64,000 nt of DNA, from positions 18,392,548 through 18,456,547 of the forward strand of contig NC_069135.1 in NCBI RefSeq assembly GCF_026914265.1, written 5' to 3'. The notes under the pieces were generated by a model. That model was not told where the DNA came from. It saw nothing but the letters and a program-made list of their open reading frames with translations, and searched no databases. The translations under genes were made by a program, and so were the position numbers. This document shows, piece by piece, positions 47,301 to 61,377 of this stretch; position 1 is the first letter of the stretch, and each line of letters opens with the position of its first letter. Source of the DNA: Mya arenaria (Eukaryota > Mollusca > Bivalvia > Myida > Myidae).

Positions 47301-50300
47301 TGCCGGTGTAATTTACTTGATGAACTGTGAGATTTTGAATAAGATGATCTAGAATGAGATTTTGTAGGGGAATGAGTTTTTGAATGAGATTTTGATGAAA
47401 CAGAGTGCCGACTTGAAGACTGGTGTGTTTTTGATGAAGAATGCATTGAGAAACTACCCTTGCCTCCATGTCGAATTTCTGAAAAAGCAATGTCATTTTG
47501 AAAAACTGTGACTATGCATGGAAATCTTGCTAGTTATACCTCTTCTTCAGCGTTATCGATGGAAAATGAGCCTTTCTTTGATAACTAAGACATAATTTCA
47601 CAAAAATAATGAAAATAAAGGAACTTGTTAATCATTACCATTTTTAAGAAGTAAGATTACTTTATTTAATTACAGTATCTAAATATGACATAATGCCATA
47701 ATAAGCACACATATTCCAATGTTACTTGAAAATTTGCTTTTTTGTAAAAAATAAACTTTGCTATTTTTCAATTATTATTGTTGTTTTTTTTTCTTTTATT
47801 TCTTCACATTTAGAATATGACAGCCTTTCAACATATGACGAATTTCAATAAAGCAATCTATAATCGGTGTTGAAGTAATATTTGGAATGACCCCTTCAAA
47901 CATTGAAAATACATTGTAAGACATTTCAAATTGTGTCATATATGCTACGTCAGAAGGCAAAATTTTACTTAAAATGAAGACTTAAAACAAAGATAACTTT
48001 TGTTTGACCACATGAAACAGACTATGCCGCTTTAAGAGCTCTGCCTTTGTTTTATTACTGGAGTTTGATAAGGTGATTAGTTTCATCAAACACTACGACA
48101 CTGTTTCAAATACAATGTTTTGACAGTGCTCCATCAGACAGCTGTATTGTGGAAAGGTTTGTCAAAGTGTTTTCAGAAACTAAACTCTCTATCAAACTCT
48201 GGTAAAAAACTGAAGCATAAGCAGCGAAGACTGTGATATGTTTCATTTAAAATGGAGACGAAATAGTGAAGTGACCTTTGTTTGAAGTCTTCATTCAAAG
48301 CAAAATGTTGCCTTCCAACATAGCATTTATGACACAATTTATCACATGGTATAAACACTGTGTATATCTTCTCCAGGAATACAATAAAAAGAAATTATTT
48401 TGTTCCAGTGTAAGATCGTAAATATGTTTTAATAATTTCACCTTATGAAAACCTTAGTAGTTATTTCATTTGAGGCTATGCCACTTGCAAAATATAGCTT
48501 TTGGCGCTAGCTCAGTGATATATATATTATGATCTTGCACAGAAACAATTGTAAACCCTTTACATGTATGTTACATTTGTAACAGCAACCTTCAACAAGA
48601 GCTGTCACAGAGACAGCACGCTCGACTATTCCGCCGCTTTTCAATGTAAGGATTGAAAAGTTTTGGCGAAACATGCATGGATCACTGTTAGATCAGATTT
48701 CAATGCAATACATGGTGTGCTGAGATATAAAATATGCAAAATATTAACGAAAATTTCTAAGTCTAATAATAAAGGGCCATTATTTGCAAAATACAGTTAT
48801 CTAACTTGGTTACTCAATTAAGTTGGGTGGTTGAATACCATTGTATAAAGTCTCAATGCAATACATCAAAAAGTTGCTGAGATATTATCCTATGTGTGCT
48901 AACATGCAAGACCTTAACCAGAATTTTTAAGTCGCATAATAAAGGGGCAAAAATTATATATTATAAAAGATAGGGTTATCTTACTTGATTAAATAAGAAG
49001 GTTAAATAGATGGGAGCCTGTGTGTAAAGTTTCAATGCAATACATGATGTATTCGCTGAGGTATTAACCTATGTGTGCTTACACGCAAAACCTTAACCAG
49101 AATTTCTAAGTCAAATAATAAAGGGCAATTATTTGCATTAAATGCAAACTAGAGTTAGCTAACTTGGTTAATTAAGTAGGTTGGATGGTTGAGTACCATT
49201 GTATAAAGCCTCAACGCAATACCTCAAGTACGGTAGTTGCTGAGATATGAACCTATGTGTGCTTACACGCAAAACCTTGACCAGAATTTCTAAGTCAAAT
49301 AATAAAGGCCTATTATTTGCGTTATATTCAAATAATTGTTATCTAACTTCATTAATTTAGTATGTAAGATAGTTGGGAATACATATCCAAAGATTCAATG
49401 CAATAATTGATGTATTTACTGAGATAATGACTTAAAGGTGCTTACATGCAAAACCTTAACCAAGGTGTGACACCAACGCCAACGCCAGGGTGAGTAGTAT
49501 AGCTCTCCTTATTCTTCAAATAGTCGAGCTAAAAACCCATGTCATTTTGGGTTAATAAAGGTAAACATTATTAATTATTAAAAACAATTGCTTACCAAGA
49601 TGTGACTGAAGAGCTTGTGGTTTTAAAACTTGACCACATTTGTCACAGACAACCAGATAAAATTCATCCCTGGAGGGACAGAGGCCGAATAATGGCATAT
49701 CTGAAAGGTAAAAACAGCAAGTTAAATATAAATACACCTCATACTTTTGTTTGGATTTATTAAGAATAGACCAATTTCTAATTTAGTAATTATCTAAGGC
49801 TGTTATTCTTTGACTCAATGTACACACTCTGTGCTCCTTTCTGCACTGCATACCAGCATTTACTCTGGGGGCACTTTTCCATGCATTCGTGAAATTAATA
49901 ATTCTATTTTGTCTGATTCACTTCTTAATATCATGGTCTTTGAACAGAGAAACCGATACAAATATTGTCAGTCTGAGTGGAGTGTGGATGAATAACTAAA
50001 GGGATGTTTTTTAAAGGTTTGTTTAATTATGATCATGTAAAACTGAACTTTTCTGGTTGAAGTAATACTCTAAATGTTCATAGTATATGATGTGTTTCGA
50101 TATGATATAACTACGTACAGCATATTTGATTGCTTGTCATGACAGGAATATATGACTATATGATAATGATAATCAGGGCTTCTAAAATTTTGAAATCTCA
50201 ATCAGGGCCTGTCAACCTGGCACGATGTGCTCATGGAATAGCGACAATGGGTTTTCACTTGTTCTATTTTTGCAAATGTGGAACACACATGTGGTGTGCC

Positions 50301-51386: not shown

Positions 51387-54300
51387 ATGGCAGCAGTTTC
51401 GGATGGTACAAAACGTTCAATTTTTAGGCCTTTTATGTGTTTCTCTTTTAAATTAAAAAATATTTCTTATAAACCATTCAAAATTAATTAACATGTGAAT
51501 ATTTTTTGTTAAAATGATGACAAAATTTGTCGATGATTTTGACATATCATGAAATGTAATATTATTCCGCGAGTCGTTTACAAACTCTCTAGTTAATTTA
51601 TTCATAGTTTCTTTAGTTCAACGCATTAAATTATGACACAATTTTAAATCTTATCATACCTTTCGTTTCATTCAAGATATCTGTCAATTTTGTCTCCTAA
51701 TGATCATTGGTGAATGTTATTCTAACACTCAAAACCGCCTCCAGGGACTAGTGGTTAAGGCTCTGCCTTTGAAGCGGGAGGTCGTGGGTTCAATCCCAGG
51801 CCGTGTCATACTGAAAGACATAAAAATCCGGTACAAGTATCTCCCTTCCTTGGCGATTGGCATTTAAAGGGTTGTGCTTGGAAATGTGGTGTACCAGGGC
51901 TTTTTCACCTTCTTTGCTAGGGGCTGAAATAAGACTACTTCACAATTGGGAAAAATTGCATATTTTCCCAATTTCCAGGTATTTTTTCCCCAATTCCCAG
52001 ATATTTTTCCCAAAAAGGAAGATATTACTTCAAAAAATCACAATAAAAATTTGTTCTGTTTGCGCAAATTATTCTGTTTTTCTTTTAAGTTAACATAAAG
52101 AGAATGTTGTATAATTTAAACATTATTTGAGGACCATCTAGTCCATATATTGTTATCAATTCTTTCCCTCGATTTAGAATCAACTCTATGAAAATTAAAA
52201 TTAATCTCTGTCCCTCACTTGTCATTGCGTCATGTTAAAGATGGAAAGTCACAGACATGATTTCTCCCCCAATAAGATCTACATGTGTATTAATGGCCCT
52301 GTGGAGTGTTTGTACACATTTCATATTAAAAAGGTCATAATTGAAAAAGAATCAGCTAGAAGTAGACTCACATGTAAGATATGAGCCTGTTTTTTTGTAA
52401 CATGATTACAAAGTTTCATATGGATACCTTGACCAGTGTTTAAAAGGTGTCTTCAATCCTCATATGTGGAATTTCCCAATTTGAGACGTTAAGGCATTTA
52501 AATTTCACAATTTGCAGCATTTCACGCGTTTAAATTTCCCAAAATGAAAAGGCTAGGCCTCTTCACAATTTTTGGTGAAAAAGCCCTGTGTACTCAGTAA
52601 TGGTTTAACCCAGGAAAGTTGTACCCCATGTATATTTGCTTTTCACCGAGCATGTAAAGGAACCAAGGGATCTCTTAGAAAAACAGCTAGGGTATTGCAC
52701 CCGGACTTCCTTGTATCCCACCACTTTCTCTTCCGTGTGCTTTCCTTTCAGCAAAGACAAAATGTACCTCGTTGGAAATAAGTGCTTGCACTTTCACGAG
52801 TTATCCTTGACCACAAGGTCTAAAGAAATCAAACTACAACATTGCCTGTTTAACCAGGGTCCAAAATGCTAATGAAAATGAATAACCAGAAGGATTGGAT
52901 TATGGCTGGGTGCAGAAACAAACAATGTTTTGTTAAACCAAAATTTCCTGGTCAAACTAGTTCTGTCCCACAGTCCTGTCTGCTGGTCCACATTACAAAG
53001 AGGGCACAGGACTTGCTCTTAACTATAATGGTTGGCAGCTGATGCAATCTTGACTGTGAGGAATCTTAAGGGAGTGCCATTTATAAAATATTGGTGCAGG
53101 GATTAATCTAGATGTCATTCATCTCAGTCTTAATAGCATGTTAGCAATATCTGATATGGTTTACACTACAAACAGCGGTTGTAAATGTTTCCTTTTTTGG
53201 TCTCCAAATGTTGCTTGAGTTGCATGTGGCATGATAAGGGGTCAAGCCATGGTAAATGGTATGGGCTTACAACTGAGATAAAGGCTAAGATCAGCTATTG
53301 TTATGGAAATAGTAATAAAAAAATATTTATAGTTACATGTACTTTTTTTTATTGTAGATGAGGTTATTAAGAAGCGACTGCTGATAGATGGTGATGCTGG
53401 GAATGATGAAAAACGCTTGACCAACTTCCTCAGAACTTTCATTAAATGGTGTAGCAGCGATGAGACACCAGACGAAAGGTTAGTTTTTTTTGTAACTTTA
53501 GGCTTCTTATTGCAATCAAACATGCATTATTTTTGTTGACATTAAGAAAAGATATAAATCAAATGTTTATAAATACATTATTTCAGTCTTAAACTTTTAT
53601 AAAAGATTCCTTTTTATTTATAGTCTATTTATTGTATTTATTTATATATTCTATTTAATGTCTTGCTCTTTTCACTGTTACATACTATGTATCTATTTTG
53701 CATTTTTAGTGGTAATAATCTGGACTTTGTATGACCAAAAAGAATTGACACAAAATACACATTGTCAACTTGCTTGAACTATTATGACATTGTAGTTGTT
53801 ATTATTATATGATTATTAAAATTTGGTGAAATTTACATGCTGCAGTCACCTGACAGTGCAGCGAATGCTGGCGACGCTGGCCCAGAGTGACCACTCCATC
53901 CAAAAGTCAGCCCAGGTCTACAAGATGAACCTGCTTGAACAGGAGAAATATGAACTGCTAAACAAGCAAATCAGTAGGTTATCCACATATAACTAACATG
54001 TATGAAGGCCAGATAATTTTTAGCTCGACTTTTCGAAGAATAAGGAGAGCTATACTACTCACCCTGGCGTCAGCAGTGGCGTTGGCGTCACACCTTGGTT
54101 AAGGTTTTGCATGTAAGCACCTTTAAATCATTATCTCAGTAAATAAATCAGTTATTGCATTTAAACTTTGGATATGTATTCTTAACTATCTTACATAATA
54201 AATTAATGAAGTTAGATAACAATTATTTGAATATAATGCAAATAATTGCCCTTTATTATTCGACTTAGAAATTCTGGTTAAGGTTTTGCGTGTAAGCACA

Positions 54301-57300
54301 CATAGGTTAATATCTCAGCAACTACTTGAGGTATTGCATTGATACTTGATACAATGGTACTCAACCATCAAACCTACTAAATTAACCAAATAAGATAACT
54401 CTAGTTTGCATTTAATGCAAATAATTGCCCTTTATTATTCGACTTAGAAATTCTGGTTAAGGTTTTGCGTGTAAGCACACATAGGTTAATATCTCAGCAA
54501 CTACTTGAGGTATTGTATTGATACTTTATACAATGGTACTCAACCATCCAACCTACTAAATTAACCAAGTTAGATAACTCTAGTTTGCATTTAATGAAAA
54601 TAATTGCCCTTTTTTATTCGACTTAGAAATTCTGGTTACGGTTTTGCGTGTAAGCACACATAGGTTAATATCTCAGGAACTACTTGAGGTATTGCATTGA
54701 GACTTTATACAATGGTAGTCAACCATCCGACCTACTTAATTAACCAAGTTAGATAACTCTAGTTTGCATTTAATGCAAATAAATTTATTATTCGACTTAG
54801 AAATTCTGGTTAAGGTTTTGCATGTTACCACATTTAAGTCAATATCTCAGCAAATATATCATGTATTGCATTGAAACATTAGATTTGTATTCCCAGATAA
54901 CACTTTTTTGAATATAATGCAAATTATGGGCCTTTATTATTTGACTTAGAAATTCTGGTTAAGGTTTTGCATGTAAGCACACATACGCTAATATCTCAGC
55001 TATTACTTGATGGATTACATAGATACTTTATACAATGGTACTTAACCATCTGCTTAAATAACCAAGTAAGATAACTCCAGTTTGCATTAAATTAAAATAA
55101 TGGCCCCTTTTTTTATTCGACATAGAAATTCTGGTTAAGGTTTTGCATGTAACCACTTTTAAGTCAATACCTCAGCGAATATGTCATGTATTGCATTGAA
55201 AATTTACACACAGGCTCCCATCTATTTAACCTTCTTATTTAATCAAGTAAGATAACTCTATCTTTTATAATATATAATTTTTGCCCCTTTATTATGCGAC
55301 TTAGAAATTCTGGTTAAGGTCTTGCATGTTAGCACACATAGGATAATATCTCAGCAACTATTTGATGTATTGCATTGAGACTTTATACAATGGTATTCAA
55401 CCACCCAACTTAATTGAATAACCAAGTTAGATAACTGTATTTTGCAAATAATGGCCCTTTATTATTAGACTTAGAAATTCTCGTTAATATTTTGCATGGA
55501 ACCACATTTATGTTTATATTTCAGAACACCATGTATTGCATTGAAATCTAATCTAACAGTGATCCATGCATGTTTCGCCAAAACTTTTCAATCCTTACAT
55601 TGAAAAGCGGCGGAATAGTCGAGCGTGCTGTCTCTGTGACAGCTCTTGTTAATATTTTCACTTACCACTGGACCTATGTCTTTAGGATGATCAAAAAACC
55701 TTTCAATTGTCAACAAAATTTGGCTTCATGTGTCATATTTGATCTCACTTTGTATGAGAATAAAAGGCATTTGAAACATTTCAAGATTTACTCAAGAAAT
55801 GTACTTGATAAGGAATCTTCTATTGTCTTTACAACCTCTATTTTAAAAAGCAAACCTAAACAATTTAAAGGTTTTATCAAAACTGATGGATTAAACATTT
55901 CTTTTTGTTTTTTAAATTTTAGGATATTTTTGTTTTGAATTTTAGCAATAACTTGCATTTTTGTTTGAAATATTTATCTTTTTATATATCATAAAAAGTA
56001 TTTGTCCAAAAGATCTGATTACGAGAATTAAAGGAATAATTCTTAATTTTCAAACAACAGATCTTAACTAGATACTTTGAAAAAAAAAGGTGATTCTGTT
56101 ATTTTTGAAATACACAAAAAGTTTGGGAACTGTGCAAATGAAGTGAAAAGTAATTAAATTTACTCAAATAGTTTCATAAATGTTTGACTGCTATTAAAGT
56201 TAAATCAGCTGGCTTTGTTTTACCCTAAAAATATGAAAGATACATGTCGTCATTAATTTGTGGTGTAAAAACTGTCTATCATTAAGAATAGTGAATGTTT
56301 TATAGTACAGTGAGAGTTATATGTCCTTTTAAATCTAGTTGAAAAGTCTTCCACATTAAAACTACTGTAGTTGTTATTTGGTTGTTGTTTTTTAATCAAA
56401 AAGCAAAACACAATGTATTTGTTTAAAATTAGTTATCATTTATTTATAACATGTATTATTTGGATTTCCAGAAAATCAGATTGAAGAAGCTGAGAAGAAA
56501 ATATTGGAGAGCAAAAAAGAGCTTGCAGAAGCCAAGCAAATACGCAAAAACAGACAAGGTAAGAGCTTCTATTATTAAACTTGGTGAGAATCCAAAAGTA
56601 TTGATAAATGAGATCCCAATTGACAAATGAGATCCCAATTGACAAATATCTAATTCCTAAAATAATTATAATATTGTTTTCACACAATTTTGATAAATGA
56701 AAGATGTTTATAATAACTCCTAATAGAATGTACAAAAAAAGACAGAGGCACTAAATGATTGACAAAAAGGGATACCAGCTTCAAAGCAGCTTATTGCTGT
56801 CTGGCTACTAAAGCTGAAATAAATAAGTGAAAATGTTTCCTTTCCAGAGTATGACACAATGGCCAAGAAGATCCAGGAACAGCCAGACAGACAAGGGACT
56901 ACCAAGTAAATTGCCCTGAGAGTGCCTTATTGGATTTCTTAGTTTCATGTCTATGATAGAATATAAAAGAAAATGCATAATAATTTACATGAGCTTAAAG
57001 CTTAGTTTTCAACTGTATGAAGCTGATATTTGTATTGATAAATATGCTACTGTTATTATTTAACTTTAGATATGTTTGTTCTCATCCTATTTACAAGTAT
57101 TTGTGACCTATTTTAACCTTAAAAAGGGTTTACATTTTTTATATGTATGTCAGAAATCAAAACAGTACCAAAATTATCCTTTCCTAGAATTGTGGTATGC
57201 AGTTGTTTATAAAGTGATTGTATAAATGTATTTTTTCACATTTCTAACTTTAAGTACTAGCAGTTAAAAAAAGTTTCAAAAATGTATTAATGGAATTAAA

Positions 57301-60300
57301 AGACAGTGATAAGGATGTTTGCTTAAAATTTACACACACCGTTTTTTGTTCAAGTTGCTAGCTGGAATAAGTTTTGACACAAATTTTTGTGGGAGATTTT
57401 TTTGTGGAAATATATGGTAGTATTTAGAATACCCCACATTCTCCCAATGGATTAGAGCTGAATGTAAATGCTCCCTGTATTGTTTTCCAGGAAACTGGAG
57501 TTTGTCGCTGAAGAGCTGGCTTCATTGGAGGAAACCAAGACAAAACTCGACCTCAAGGTGAGCAGTGAGAGATCTTATATCAGGGCTTACACAAATAACT
57601 TCTCTACTCTTCCATTTGTCTTAAAATCATGACCTGACTTTCCATAGTGATTGTGATTTTACTCTCCAATTAACAACTTCAGAATAACATTAAATCTAAA
57701 TAGAAAAAAAATGGACTAACCCAACTTAAAAAAGGCAAATAAACTTGATAGATGCTAACCAAAATTATTTTTGCCCAGTTTCCTGACCAACCCTATTTAT
57801 AAGCATTTTTGCCAGCAGACAATTTTTTATGAGTGTTAAATTTTTACTGCTTTTGGGGTATGTCTTTTGAGTAGTTTTGTGCACGGTAAAGAACTGTAAA
57901 CGTACCATGGCAAAATTGCAATGGTTTTTATTGTGGGAATGATATAAGACACAACGTTACTTTTAACAGTTTGGCTGAGAAATCTTAAACAAATAATAAC
58001 TAACATACTTTGATCCTTCAAAAATGAAAATAGGTTTAAACCAAATATTTTGTAGTGATATTTGCAATAAAAGTAAGTTTATTTCTGGGATATGTTTTAA
58101 CTAGGGATGCAAACGAATGGCAAAATTGATATTCGATTATTGGGTAATTCTTTCGATCGAATATTCAATTACCGAAATACATATTTTAGAAGATGTAGTA
58201 AACTACTATTATTATTCTCTTAGGTAATAGCCGGGGCAATTTTACCCTACTCTGTAGTAACCAGTACGCGCAGCGGACCCTGATTTCCCCCAAATGAGCC
58301 TTTGGAATTCTTCATTTTCAGGAAGAAAAAAACAAAACATTATCAACAGACAAACAACACAATCGAATAATTTTAATTCCGATGCCTTTATACTTGTAAA
58401 CAATGTGAAATTAGATGGATTCCTAGTCAAAAAGCGTTTTGCGCCAATTTGAGGGTCTTTCCGTTAGACGTGCAGCCTCGTTCTGAGATAGACCTCTAAA
58501 TTGACTAAATATAACTATGGAAAACCAAAACCATCTCCGGAACTAGTACAATAATAACATATGTGGATTTGACTCATCTTTTGTGAAACAATATATGAAA
58601 TATATCCTAAAACGCTATACCATACATTTACATTTCAAAGGACGAACATTGCATCGAAACATGGAAAAAAGTTTTAGCATATTAAATTGTAGCACATGAC
58701 ATTCATATCACGATTTGAGCTATGTTGCACAGTTTAATTTGCAGCCAAGACAACACGTTGGTGTTAAAGCCGATTCCTAGCCATTTCTTGTAAAAGTAGG
58801 AAGACTTTTTATAGTACCCGACGATATGTCCCTAAATGATATGTGGCGCGTGTTTAGTGTATTGTCATTACATTCACACCTCTTGCATTAGGGGCCAATC
58901 GTTGTAAAAACAAGCCAAACAAACTTTATAAACAACAACAGTGTTGTAGGCAAAAGGTTTTTTATTCTCTTTATTAAGAATTATCATTATTATTTTTTTG
59001 AATATTCGAATATCAATTATGACATTCGAATACCAAACGTTTGATCGAATATTCGAATATTGGAATATTCGTTTGCATCCATAGTTTTAACATTGTATTT
59101 AATATAAGAGTATAATCTTAACAAAAACATGAGTCTTGCCGTCTCTTATGTTTTTGCAGTCTTCATCAGGAATGAGAAATGGATGTTATGTATGGTATAA
59201 TGAATGCTTCGATCTTTGGCAAACAATTTGTAAAATTTAAGGGGTTAATATGTACATAATCTATAAATGACAATAATATATATTAATTAAGTTTTTATGT
59301 GTTATATTCATTATGTGACTTTCAGCTTGATCTCAGAAGGAAGCAGTTTCATGTTCTTATCTCTGCCATCCATGAGCTCCAGATACTGTTGGAAGGTATG
59401 TGTGCTTCATTCTCCAGATTCTGTTGGAAGGTATGTGTGCTTCATTCTCCAGATTCTGTTGGAAGGTATGTGTGCTTCATCCTCCAGATACTGTTGGAAG
59501 GTATGTGTGCTTCATCCTCCAGATACTGTTGGAAGGTATGTGTGCTTCATCCTCCAGATACTGTTGGAAGGTATGTGTGCTTCATCCTCCAGATACTGTT
59601 GGAAGGTATGTGTGCTTCATCCTCCAGATACTGTTGGAAGGTATGTGTGCTTCATCCTCCAGATACTGTTGGAAGGTATGTGTGCTTCATTCTCCAGATT
59701 CAGTTGGAAGGTATGTGTGCTTCATCCTCCAGATTCAGTTGGAAGGTATGTGTGCTTCATCCTCCAGATTCAGTTGGAAGGTATGTGTGCTTCATACTCC
59801 AGATACTGTTGGAAGGTATGTGTGCTTCATTCTCCAGATTCAGTTGGAAGGTATGTGTGCTTCATCCTCCAGATACTGTTGGAAGGTATGTGTGCTTCAT
59901 CCTCCAGATACTGTTGGAAGGTATGTGTGCTTCATCCTCCAGATTCTGCTGGAAGGTATGTGTGCTTCATACTCCAGATACTTTTGGAAGGTATGTGTGC
60001 TTCATTCTCCAGATTCAGTTGGAAGGTATGTGTGCTTCATCCTCCAGATACTGTTGGAAGGTATGTGTGCTTCATCCTCCAGATACTGTTGGAAGGTATG
60101 TGTGCTTCATACTCCAGATACTGTTGGAAGGTATGTGTGCTTCATCCTCCAGATACTGTTGGAAGGTATGTGTGCTTCATCCTCCAGATACTGTTGGAAG
60201 GTATGTGTGCTTCATACTCCAGATACTGTTGGAAGGTATGTGTGCTTCATCCTCCAGATACTGTTGGAAGGTATGTGTGCTTCATCCTCCAGATTCAGTT

Positions 60301-61377
60301 GGAAGGTATGTGTGCTTCATTCTCCAGATACTGTTGGAAGGTATGTGTGCTTCATCCTCCAGATACTGTTGGAAGGTATGTGTGCTTCATACTCCAGATA
60401 CTGTTGGAAGGTATGTGTGCTTCATACTCCAGATACTTTTGGAAGGTATGTGTGCTTCATTCTCCAGATACTGTTGGAAGGTATGTGTGCTTCATTCTCC
60501 AGATACTGTTAGAAGGTAGGTGTGCTTCATTCTCCAGATACTGTTGTAAGGTATGTGTGCTTTATTCATTTGTTAATTCAGTGCAAGTTGAGCCATTCTA
60601 TTAAATGTTGGCGGATTCACTGAAAACGCCCCAACTGAAATATTTGTTTGCCCTATTGAGTGACTTATTATTTGGGTTGGCTGTTGCAATGCCAGCATTT
60701 TTTTTAAGGATGGGCATAGCTGATCTGTGTTCGGGATTTAAAGCTATTGTTATAGCCTTGGTGTCATAAGCAGCCAAATTGTTTTCATACAAGACCTTCA
60801 TACTTGATTTATTCGGGTACTTTAACCTGGTACACTTGACTTGTTAAGGTTGACAAAAACATTGTGTGTTGCAAGTATTACTACTCAAGATAAAAGCATG
60901 TTGCATAATGCCATATAAGTACCACAGCATTGGGTGTATCTGATTTGAGGGCTGTTCATAGAACTCAACTGTCTTTCTGCTATTGGTGAAAGATGAGAAC
61001 CTGTAGACAATGGTGGAAAAGTGTAATAGCCTGTCATTAATTGTTAGTAATGCATCCTATATGTGTTTTTCTTTAACTATACAAATATCTTCACCAGTGT
61101 TAGGGTTAGGGGGTTGGGGGCAGTGTTGCATTATCCCCCTCATGACATTAAAGTGTACCTATCTGTTGACAGAGGATAGGGAGCTAAGGACAGGTTCAGA
61201 TGAGTGAGGAGCCTGAAAGAGGATTTAAACATCTGCCTAAATGGCAGGGGGGTGGGGCAGTGTTGCATTATCCCCCATCATGACATTGATATTTATCTGT
61301 TTACAGAGGATGAGGAGCTGAGGACGGGCTCAGAAGAAAGAGAGAGAAGTCAGAGGGATGATATGGACACTACATGA
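51387..61377 (+). CDS. THOC7: THO complex subunit 7
   Basis: Eight coding exons: 51387-51405, 53358-53478, 53846-53973, 56472-56558, 56848-56905, 57491-57557, 59326-59395 and 61307-61377. They total 621 nt and encode 206 aa, close to the 204 aa I recall for human THOC7. Diagnostic matches include MAAVSDDEVIKKRLLIDGD, FLRTFIKWC, IRKNRQEYD and LRRKQFHVLISAIHELQ. The middle is coiled-coil, as expected for a subunit that packs along the THO core in transcription-coupled mRNA packaging and export. All junctions agree in phase. A polyadenylation signal AATAAA is at 61685-61690. Two oddities: the donor of exon 7 is amplified into a 34-unit array (59377-60566), and the last exon has an upstream duplicate (61173-61207) with its own stop. 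The gene is divergent from ataxin-7. Confidence 0.95.
51735..52870 (+). mobile_element. tRNA-derived SINE, interrupted by another element
   Basis: The head has A-box-like TAGTGGTTAAGGCTC and B-box GGTCGTGGGTTCAATCCC at tRNA spacing, followed by a GGTACAAGTATCTCCCTTCC body. The body is cut at 51894 and resumes at 52594 with TCAGTAATGGTTTAACCCAG. The 3' boundary is uncertain (about 52750-52870). It lies in THOC7 intron 1. Confidence 0.65.
51895..52588. mobile_element. 694-bp TIR element inserted in the SINE
   Basis: The ends are perfect inverted repeats CAGGGCTTTTTCACC and GGTGAAAAAGCCCTG, flanked by a direct 5-bp duplication TGTAC (51890-51894 and 52589-52593). It has no coding capacity. The 5-bp duplication does not fit hAT (8 bp); the superfamily is left open. 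Confidence 0.85.
54021..55650 (-). mobile_element. Tandem-core element B (same family as 48592)
   Basis: The ends AGCTCGACTTTTCGAAG and GCTGTCTCTGTGACAGCTC are those of copy A in reverse. The core has about eight or nine units, the best-preserved with a 179-bp period (54242, 54420 and 54600: AATTGCCCTTTATTATTCG type). It lies in THOC7 intron 3. Confidence 0.65.
58102..59083. mobile_element. Non-autonomous hAT-like element (982 bp)
   Basis: Termini TAGGGATGCAAACGAAT (left) and the complement of TATGGATGCAAACGAAT (right) are flanked by an exact 8-bp direct duplication GTTTTAAC (58094-58101 and 59084-59091), as expected for hAT transposons. The arms are rich in ATTCGAATATTC. It has no transposase frame. 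It lies in THOC7 intron 6. Confidence 0.85.
59377..60566 (+). repeat. 34 x 35-bp minisatellite made of THOC7 exon 7 end plus splice donor
   Basis: The first unit starts inside exon 7 (CTCCAGATACTGTTGGAAG) and runs into the intron (GTATGTGTGCTTCAT). Unit starts at 59377 and 60532 are exactly 33 periods apart, so the period never slips. Variation is limited to a few positions (ATACTG/ATTCTG/ATTCAG, CATCC/CATTC/CATAC). Nearly every unit keeps GAAG followed by GTATGTG. Each unit also has a TTCATCCTCCAG acceptor-like tract 13 bases before the donor. None of the three forward frames meets a stop within the array. Confidence 0.97.
61173..61207 (+). other. Duplicate terminal coding exon of THOC7
   Basis: After TGTTGACAG, AGGATAGGGAGCTAAGG and the following bases match the start of the real last exon at 61307 (AGGATGAGGAGCTGAGG). 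Flanking TGTTGCATTATCCCC and CATGACATT also match, so a segment of about 135-140 bp was duplicated. Spliced from exon 7 it would encode EDRELRTGSDE and stop, a tail shorter by 12 residues. Confidence 0.75.

Follow-up and report, generated by a model that had tools for sequence, protein, structure and literature searches.

The Mya arenaria gene for THOC7, a core mRNA-export subunit, contains a minisatellite that repeats one of the gene's own 5' splice sites 34 times. The array (34 units of 35 bp; 59377 to 60566, + strand) spans the border between exon 7 and intron 7, within the 64,000-nucleotide stretch of contig NC_069135.1 that we analyzed (the window, to which all positions refer). We think that it is probably a neutral minisatellite that was seeded at this exon-intron border, that the first donor makes most THOC7 mRNA with occasional leakage to the other copies, and that the altered protein tails would be tolerated. 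The array had first been noticed from the letters of the window (the original prediction). That observation was confirmed, and the reading that came with it was partly supported.

The identity of the gene is clear from a match to the Pfam THOC7 domain (5.6e-35; 121.1 bits, against a curated cut-off of 28.7) and to the human homologue, THO chain 7apk_G (4.4e-56). The gene model has eight exons (51387 to 61377) and a product of 206 amino acids, whose best protein match is Mya arenaria THOC7 (P0001; 100% identity across 206 residues). The gene name and the exon number, 7, of the original prediction agree with these results. Exon 7 is 70 nt long (59326 to 59395, + strand), as placed by the gene model, by an alignment of 14 THOC7 proteins, and by the human homologue. 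Given donor 1 (that of the first unit) and the acceptor of exon 8, intron 7 has 1,911 nt (59396 to 61306, + strand), and the coding portion of exon 8, through the stop codon, follows at 61307 to 61377 (+ strand; gene model and match to P0001). In a whole-genome protein search (16 candidates scored), THOC7 had seven places, all of them at this locus and corresponding to exons 2-8, so the gene appears to be single-copy. The same search gave no THOC7 retrocopy that might serve as a fossil of past donor use.

Tandem Repeats Finder reports the minisatellite at 59377-60562, with a period of 35, 33.9 copies, 95% matches, and 0% indels. When the array is cut in 35-base steps, it gives 34 units, which represent 12 sequence types and vary in 9 of the 35 columns; both methods bear out the predicted copy number and extent. 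A DNA search of the 1.216-Gb genome found the array at one place only (this search skips very common words). Unit 1 consists of the 19 terminal bases of coding exon 7 (59377-59395) and 16 intron bases, and, as predicted, the donor is repeated in register: AAGGT (the exon-end AAG followed by GT) is intact in 34 of 34 units, as is CTCCAG, and GTATGT is found in all but unit 33, which has GTAGGT instead. Each of the 33 intronic copies (59412 to 60566, + strand; GTATGT in 32 of them) thus has an acceptor-like CTCCAG, then 13 bases ending in AAG, and then GT, with the 13-base interval that had been claimed. As there are 34 in-register copies, the array is not due to chance. The exon part of unit 1, CTCCAGATACTGTTGGAAG, encodes L-Q-I-L-L-E, which lies in a stretch (HELQ..LE) that is conserved across the 14 aligned THOC7 proteins, 12 of them from named molluscs (H176 is invariant, and E177, L178, and L182 are nearly so). 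Because these exon bases encode a conserved stretch, the exonic copy is likely the parent of the array, as the original prediction had it. The unit types run ABCDDDDDAEEFAEDDGHEDIDDIDDJDIIHAKL along the array, and units 33 and 34, at its intron end, have changes that no other unit shares. By eye, this order contains no obvious three-unit expansion blocks (105 bp, which would keep the reading frame).

The array donors are nearly uniform: 33 of 34 are identical over the nine bases tested and pair with U1 at -6.3 kcal/mol. (For the other THOC7 donors, the values are -9.5 for exon 4, -9.6 for exon 6, and -4.1, -6.2, -4.8, and -1.8 for exons 1, 2, 3, and 5.) On the + strand of the window, 120 of 3,695 GT sites pair at least as well, so that the common array donor is decent but not exceptional. 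The variant donor of unit 33 (60516 to 60521, + strand) has the strongest U1 pairing in the array, at -9.8 kcal/mol, and it creates an in-frame TAG at 60517-60519. On the acceptor side, the pyrimidine fraction is 0.62-0.69 in all six of the array acceptors that we examined, and each has a stretch of 16-20 bases that is free of AG. By the branch-point rule that we applied, 4 of 7 true THOC7 acceptors and 0 of 6 array acceptors have a usable site, and the rule fails to separate the two classes. The distance from an array donor to the adjacent array acceptor is 22 nt, or 57 nt if one unit is skipped. We also considered whether a hairpin or duplex might hide the donors, but six real units showed no gain in folding over tandems made from 200 shuffled units (z = 0.25).

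Use of donor n would add 35(n-1) bases. As 35 bases shift the frame, only every third donor (1, 4, 7 ... 31; 11 of 34) keeps the frame of exon 8, which agrees with the original prediction. The out-of-frame donors soon meet a stop codon in exon 8: products of donors 2, 5, 8, and so on end in exon 8 with the four residues RMRS, and those of donors 3, 6, 9, and so on end there after a single residue, G. The claim that all three forward frames stay open is correct through unit 32. Beyond that, the exon's own frame stops at the TAG in the unit-33 donor, a second frame also stops in unit 33, and the third is open past the end of the array. The openness is itself no more than mildly unusual, since 8.3% of shuffled units also have all three frames open. 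With donor 34, translation does not reach exon 8, as the frame ends at the TAG in unit 33. Donors 1 to 33 all place the stop codon in the last exon, and by the usual rule, nonsense-mediated decay is not expected with such a stop.

All 34 single-donor products retain THOC7 residues 1-183, so the changes are confined to the C-terminal tail. The junction between exons 7 and 8 corresponds to residue 184 in Mya and to about residue 183 in human THOC7. In the human complex, the THOC7 model covers residues 22-181 in one monomer; a four-helix bundle for dimerisation, which was modelled as poly-alanine, is built from the C-terminal ends of the coiled coils of THOC5-THOC7 (PMC7744094). The junction therefore lies at the edge of the modelled protein, and an insert there might be harmless. 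The very end of the protein, M-[DE]-T, is conserved (M203 and T205 are invariant in the 14 aligned sequences).

To explain the array, we propose that a 35-base segment that straddled the exon 7 donor was duplicated and that the array then grew within intron 7, by slippage or unequal exchange, while the exonic copy stayed under protein constraint. Donor 1 (59396 to 59401, + strand; AAG followed by GTATGT) would make most of the mature THOC7 mRNA, and splicing of the intron would remove the other 33 copies. Since the donors of these copies are almost the same, nearby ones (donors 2-4 first) are probably used in a small share of the transcripts, which would lead to altered C-terminal tails. Two things would make such tails tolerable: their stop codons fall within the final exon or in a late unit of the array, and the modelled part of THOC7 ends at or before the tail. 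This proposal is consistent with the anatomy of the array, with the unit variants that are shared among copies, with the private changes in units 33 and 34, and with the lack of special folding in the array RNA.

The database proteins point to donor 1 as well. P0001 is exactly the product of donor 1 (the gene model and the protein agree in length, with 100% identity), and its 90% cluster has a single member. No second Mya arenaria protein was found among the 120 of 149 matches listed in the THOC7 protein search, whose length limit (1.75 × 206) admits the products of donors 2-15. As P0001 is the product of donor 1 and the array donors are not unusually strong, the statement in the original prediction that the cell must choose among equivalent donors is not supported. 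P0001 is probably an NCBI RefSeq model made with the aid of RNA-seq, judging from its name and from the described pipelines. According to PMC11978232, the NCBI re-annotation of the Mya genome used RNA-seq from six tissues and gave more transcript isoforms than the first annotation. P0001 supports donor 1 but leaves room for the other donors, because short reads inside the array are ambiguous.

A search with the translated array found one protein, P0121, a "THOC7-like protein [Mya arenaria]" of 448 amino acids. (The search scored the 7,997 candidates that share the most words, so it may have passed over products with one or two extra units.) The sequence of P0121, from NQIEEAEKK to the last residue, corresponds to exon 7 spliced from donor 1, an exon that runs between the acceptor of unit 7 and donor 24, a micro-exon of 13 bases, and exon 8. 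In an enumeration over the array, the unit 7 acceptor and donor 24 were the only pair that reproduces P0121 (units 7-24 as one exon, 59593 to 60200, + strand); the copy that supplies the micro-exon is indistinguishable. The start of P0121 is aberrant: it comes from upstream sequence, and exon 3 is left early, after ATLAQ. Because of these other odd features, P0121 is weak evidence for use of the array, and it looks like a faulty model made by a gene finder. Its name and the described pipelines suggest that it is a MAKER/GenBank model; for the first annotation, MAKER drew on SNAP, bivalve proteins, and a Trinity transcriptome (PMC10663159). The original prediction had also suggested that each unit could behave as a 13-base micro-exon. 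The geometry is right, and P0121 contains an example, but the model that provides the example is itself doubtful.

Several observations weigh against the dominance of donor 1 or against neutrality. First, short reads cannot place a junction in a near-identical array, so an annotation without array isoforms is weak evidence that there are none. Second, products of donor 16 and beyond lie outside the length limit of the protein search. Third, P0121 is a deposited model that contains 18 array units and a micro-exon, and, if it is a MAKER model, it is possible that it has partial transcript support, since the input to that pipeline included the Trinity transcriptome. Fourth, no variable column falls in AAGGTA or CCAG (ten core columns, P = 0.029, post hoc). 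We do not take this last result as selection on the splice bases, as there is no deficit of variation in the wider donor and acceptor windows (P = 0.24 and 0.25).

The most serious alternative is that several donors, mainly the first few, are used in normal tissue, so that THOC7 has multiple isoforms with a ladder of C-terminal tails, as is reported for human IFI6. The uniformity of the donors and the intact residues 1-183 would allow this, and IFI6 is reported to have transcripts from two downstream repeat-unit donors, giving three mRNAs (PMC4526556). Yet no second Mya protein is among the listed matches, even though the products of donors 2-15 fit the length limit, and two of the three donor classes lose the conserved M-[DE]-T end. 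We consider this reading unlikely. Somewhat less likely still is a splicing module of variable length, in which the spliceosome would sample all 34 donors and some array acceptors, and the repeat number of each animal would set the ladder of tails and micro-exons. If this were true, then a core mRNA-export subunit would have Cys-containing C-terminal tails and products with 13-nt micro-exons. Transcripts from donors 2-34 would carry the array intron bases GTATGTGTGCTTCAT within about 35 nt upstream of the junction, and donor-1 transcripts would not.

It is improbable as well that transcripts like P0121 exist, with array acceptors joined to array donors to give variable internal exons and 13-nt micro-exons. 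P0121 does agree letter for letter, from NQIEEAEKK to the last residue, with the path through the array given above, and all 33 intronic units have CTCCAG, with a pyrimidine fraction of 0.62-0.69 in the six acceptors examined. However, the upstream start and the early exit from exon 3 are as in ab initio models (and MAKER used SNAP), the adjacent donor-acceptor gap is only 22 nt, so that the 57-nt gap requires that a unit be skipped, and none of the six array acceptors has a well-placed branch-point match (although the rule also misses 3 of 7 real ones).

Two other explanations are very improbable. The array or its length could be an artefact, as repeats are a usual site of error and there is a single assembly, but PacBio long reads with FALCON-Unzip and 10x polishing should span 1.2 kb (PMC10663159), and the 12 unit types occur in an order that is non-periodic by eye. 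Just as improbably, the array might have been selected as an intronic regulator, such as a platform for multiple U1 snRNPs that aids recognition of exon 7 or blocks premature polyadenylation: there are 34 moderate U1 sites within 1.2 kb, with an invariant AAGGTA, but the pairing is moderate (-6.3), and the pattern test gave only the post hoc P value above, from the Mya sequence.

The locus has other features besides the array. Immediately before exon 8 lies a duplicate of the beginning of that exon and of roughly 65 bases that precede it (61108-61346; 61108-61211 aligns with 61246-61346), which yields a partial copy of the exon start with its own acceptor (61173 to 61211, + strand). If the duplicate acceptor at 61173 were joined to donor 1, it would give a 194-amino-acid THOC7 with an altered tail ending EEDRELRTGSDE. 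Within intron 6, at 58092-59093, is an element of about 1 kb with imperfect terminal inverted repeats (arms of 27 and 28 nt, 89% complementary), which resembles a non-autonomous DNA transposon. Finally, two elements in opposite orientation (48574-49535 and 54017-55670), each with internal 179-bp tandem repeats, flank THOC7 exons 1-3, with the second in intron 3; they form long inverted repeats (up to 453 nt at 84%, and 392 nt at 95%).

Large minisatellites are common in the Mya genome: arrays of at least 1 kb occur in 8 of 20 random 10-kb stretches (200 kb sampled). Among the repeat rows whose units measure 15-100 bp, counted over these samples together with the window, 9 of 93 contain a donor-like site at least as good as that of the array (six of the nine rows come from a single locus, L018). 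After merging, 5 of 51 distinct places do, including the THOC7 array. What is unusual about the THOC7 array is its seat at an exon end, as judged against a background of random stretches rather than of the exon ends of other genes.

The spliceosome's choice among equal donors has usually been studied with a few engineered sites, and this locus offers 34 natural, near-identical donors behind one acceptor. The 12 unit types would let long reads tell some of the donors apart. Minisatellites are expected to vary in copy number between individuals, and natural variation in the length of this array is probable. The locus is also an example of a minisatellite that extends over an exon border and leaves the gene intact: the parent copy is still coding, and translation of the alternative tails ends in the final exon or in a late unit of the array. 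A more practical point is that one public gene model takes 18 array units as protein, and users of that gene set should be cautious.

Dreissena polymorpha may have had a related event in the same gene. Two THOC7 models from this species, P0002 and P0003, whose contigs are equally long, differ by a 20-residue insert in P0003. The insert nearly repeats, twice over, the ten residues before it (KYSQLNQQIG), and it lies at the position of the Mya exon 3/4 junction (residue 90). The G-K-Y in the repeat would be the translation of a GGTAAGTA donor, which does not account for V, the final residue of the insert. These protein models suggest a second donor duplication in THOC7, at a different intron. 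We found no molluscan donor array in the literature, judged by titles and the openings of abstracts, with subscription papers mostly outside the coverage.

Of the known systems, tandem alternative 5' splice sites are similar in that neighboring donors compete (PMC2423196), but that study stresses donors 3-6 bases apart, and the 34 near-identical Mya sites are 35 bases apart. The Rogers model of intron gain, as in ATP2A1 and in multi-copy 24-bp cases in fission yeast, also involves tandem copies of a segment that contains AGGT. In the fission yeast genes, an intron spans two or four of the 24-bp copies with AGGT (PMC4974935). The duplicated segment of THOC7 does contain AGGT, as AAGGT is in every unit. 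In Mya, however, the source segment already straddles an existing donor and the intron follows it. In the donor-1 model, coding exons lie on both sides of the intron that holds the array, so no intron gain is required.

The closest system is human IFI6, whose repeat unit is 12 bp and keeps the frame. There too, a minisatellite has a donor in its units, and two downstream units are reported to serve as donors, giving three mRNA species (PMC4526556). As in IFI6, the THOC7 array starts at a genuine exon end with the donor repeated in register, and if the extra donors are used, then the Mya array would work on the IFI6 plan. The differences are that the Mya unit is 35 bp, so that each donor shifts the frame, that each Mya unit is also acceptor-like, and that use of the downstream donors is only predicted here. 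The THOC7 array is of a known kind, with the twist that each unit has an acceptor-like sequence and a period that shifts the frame.

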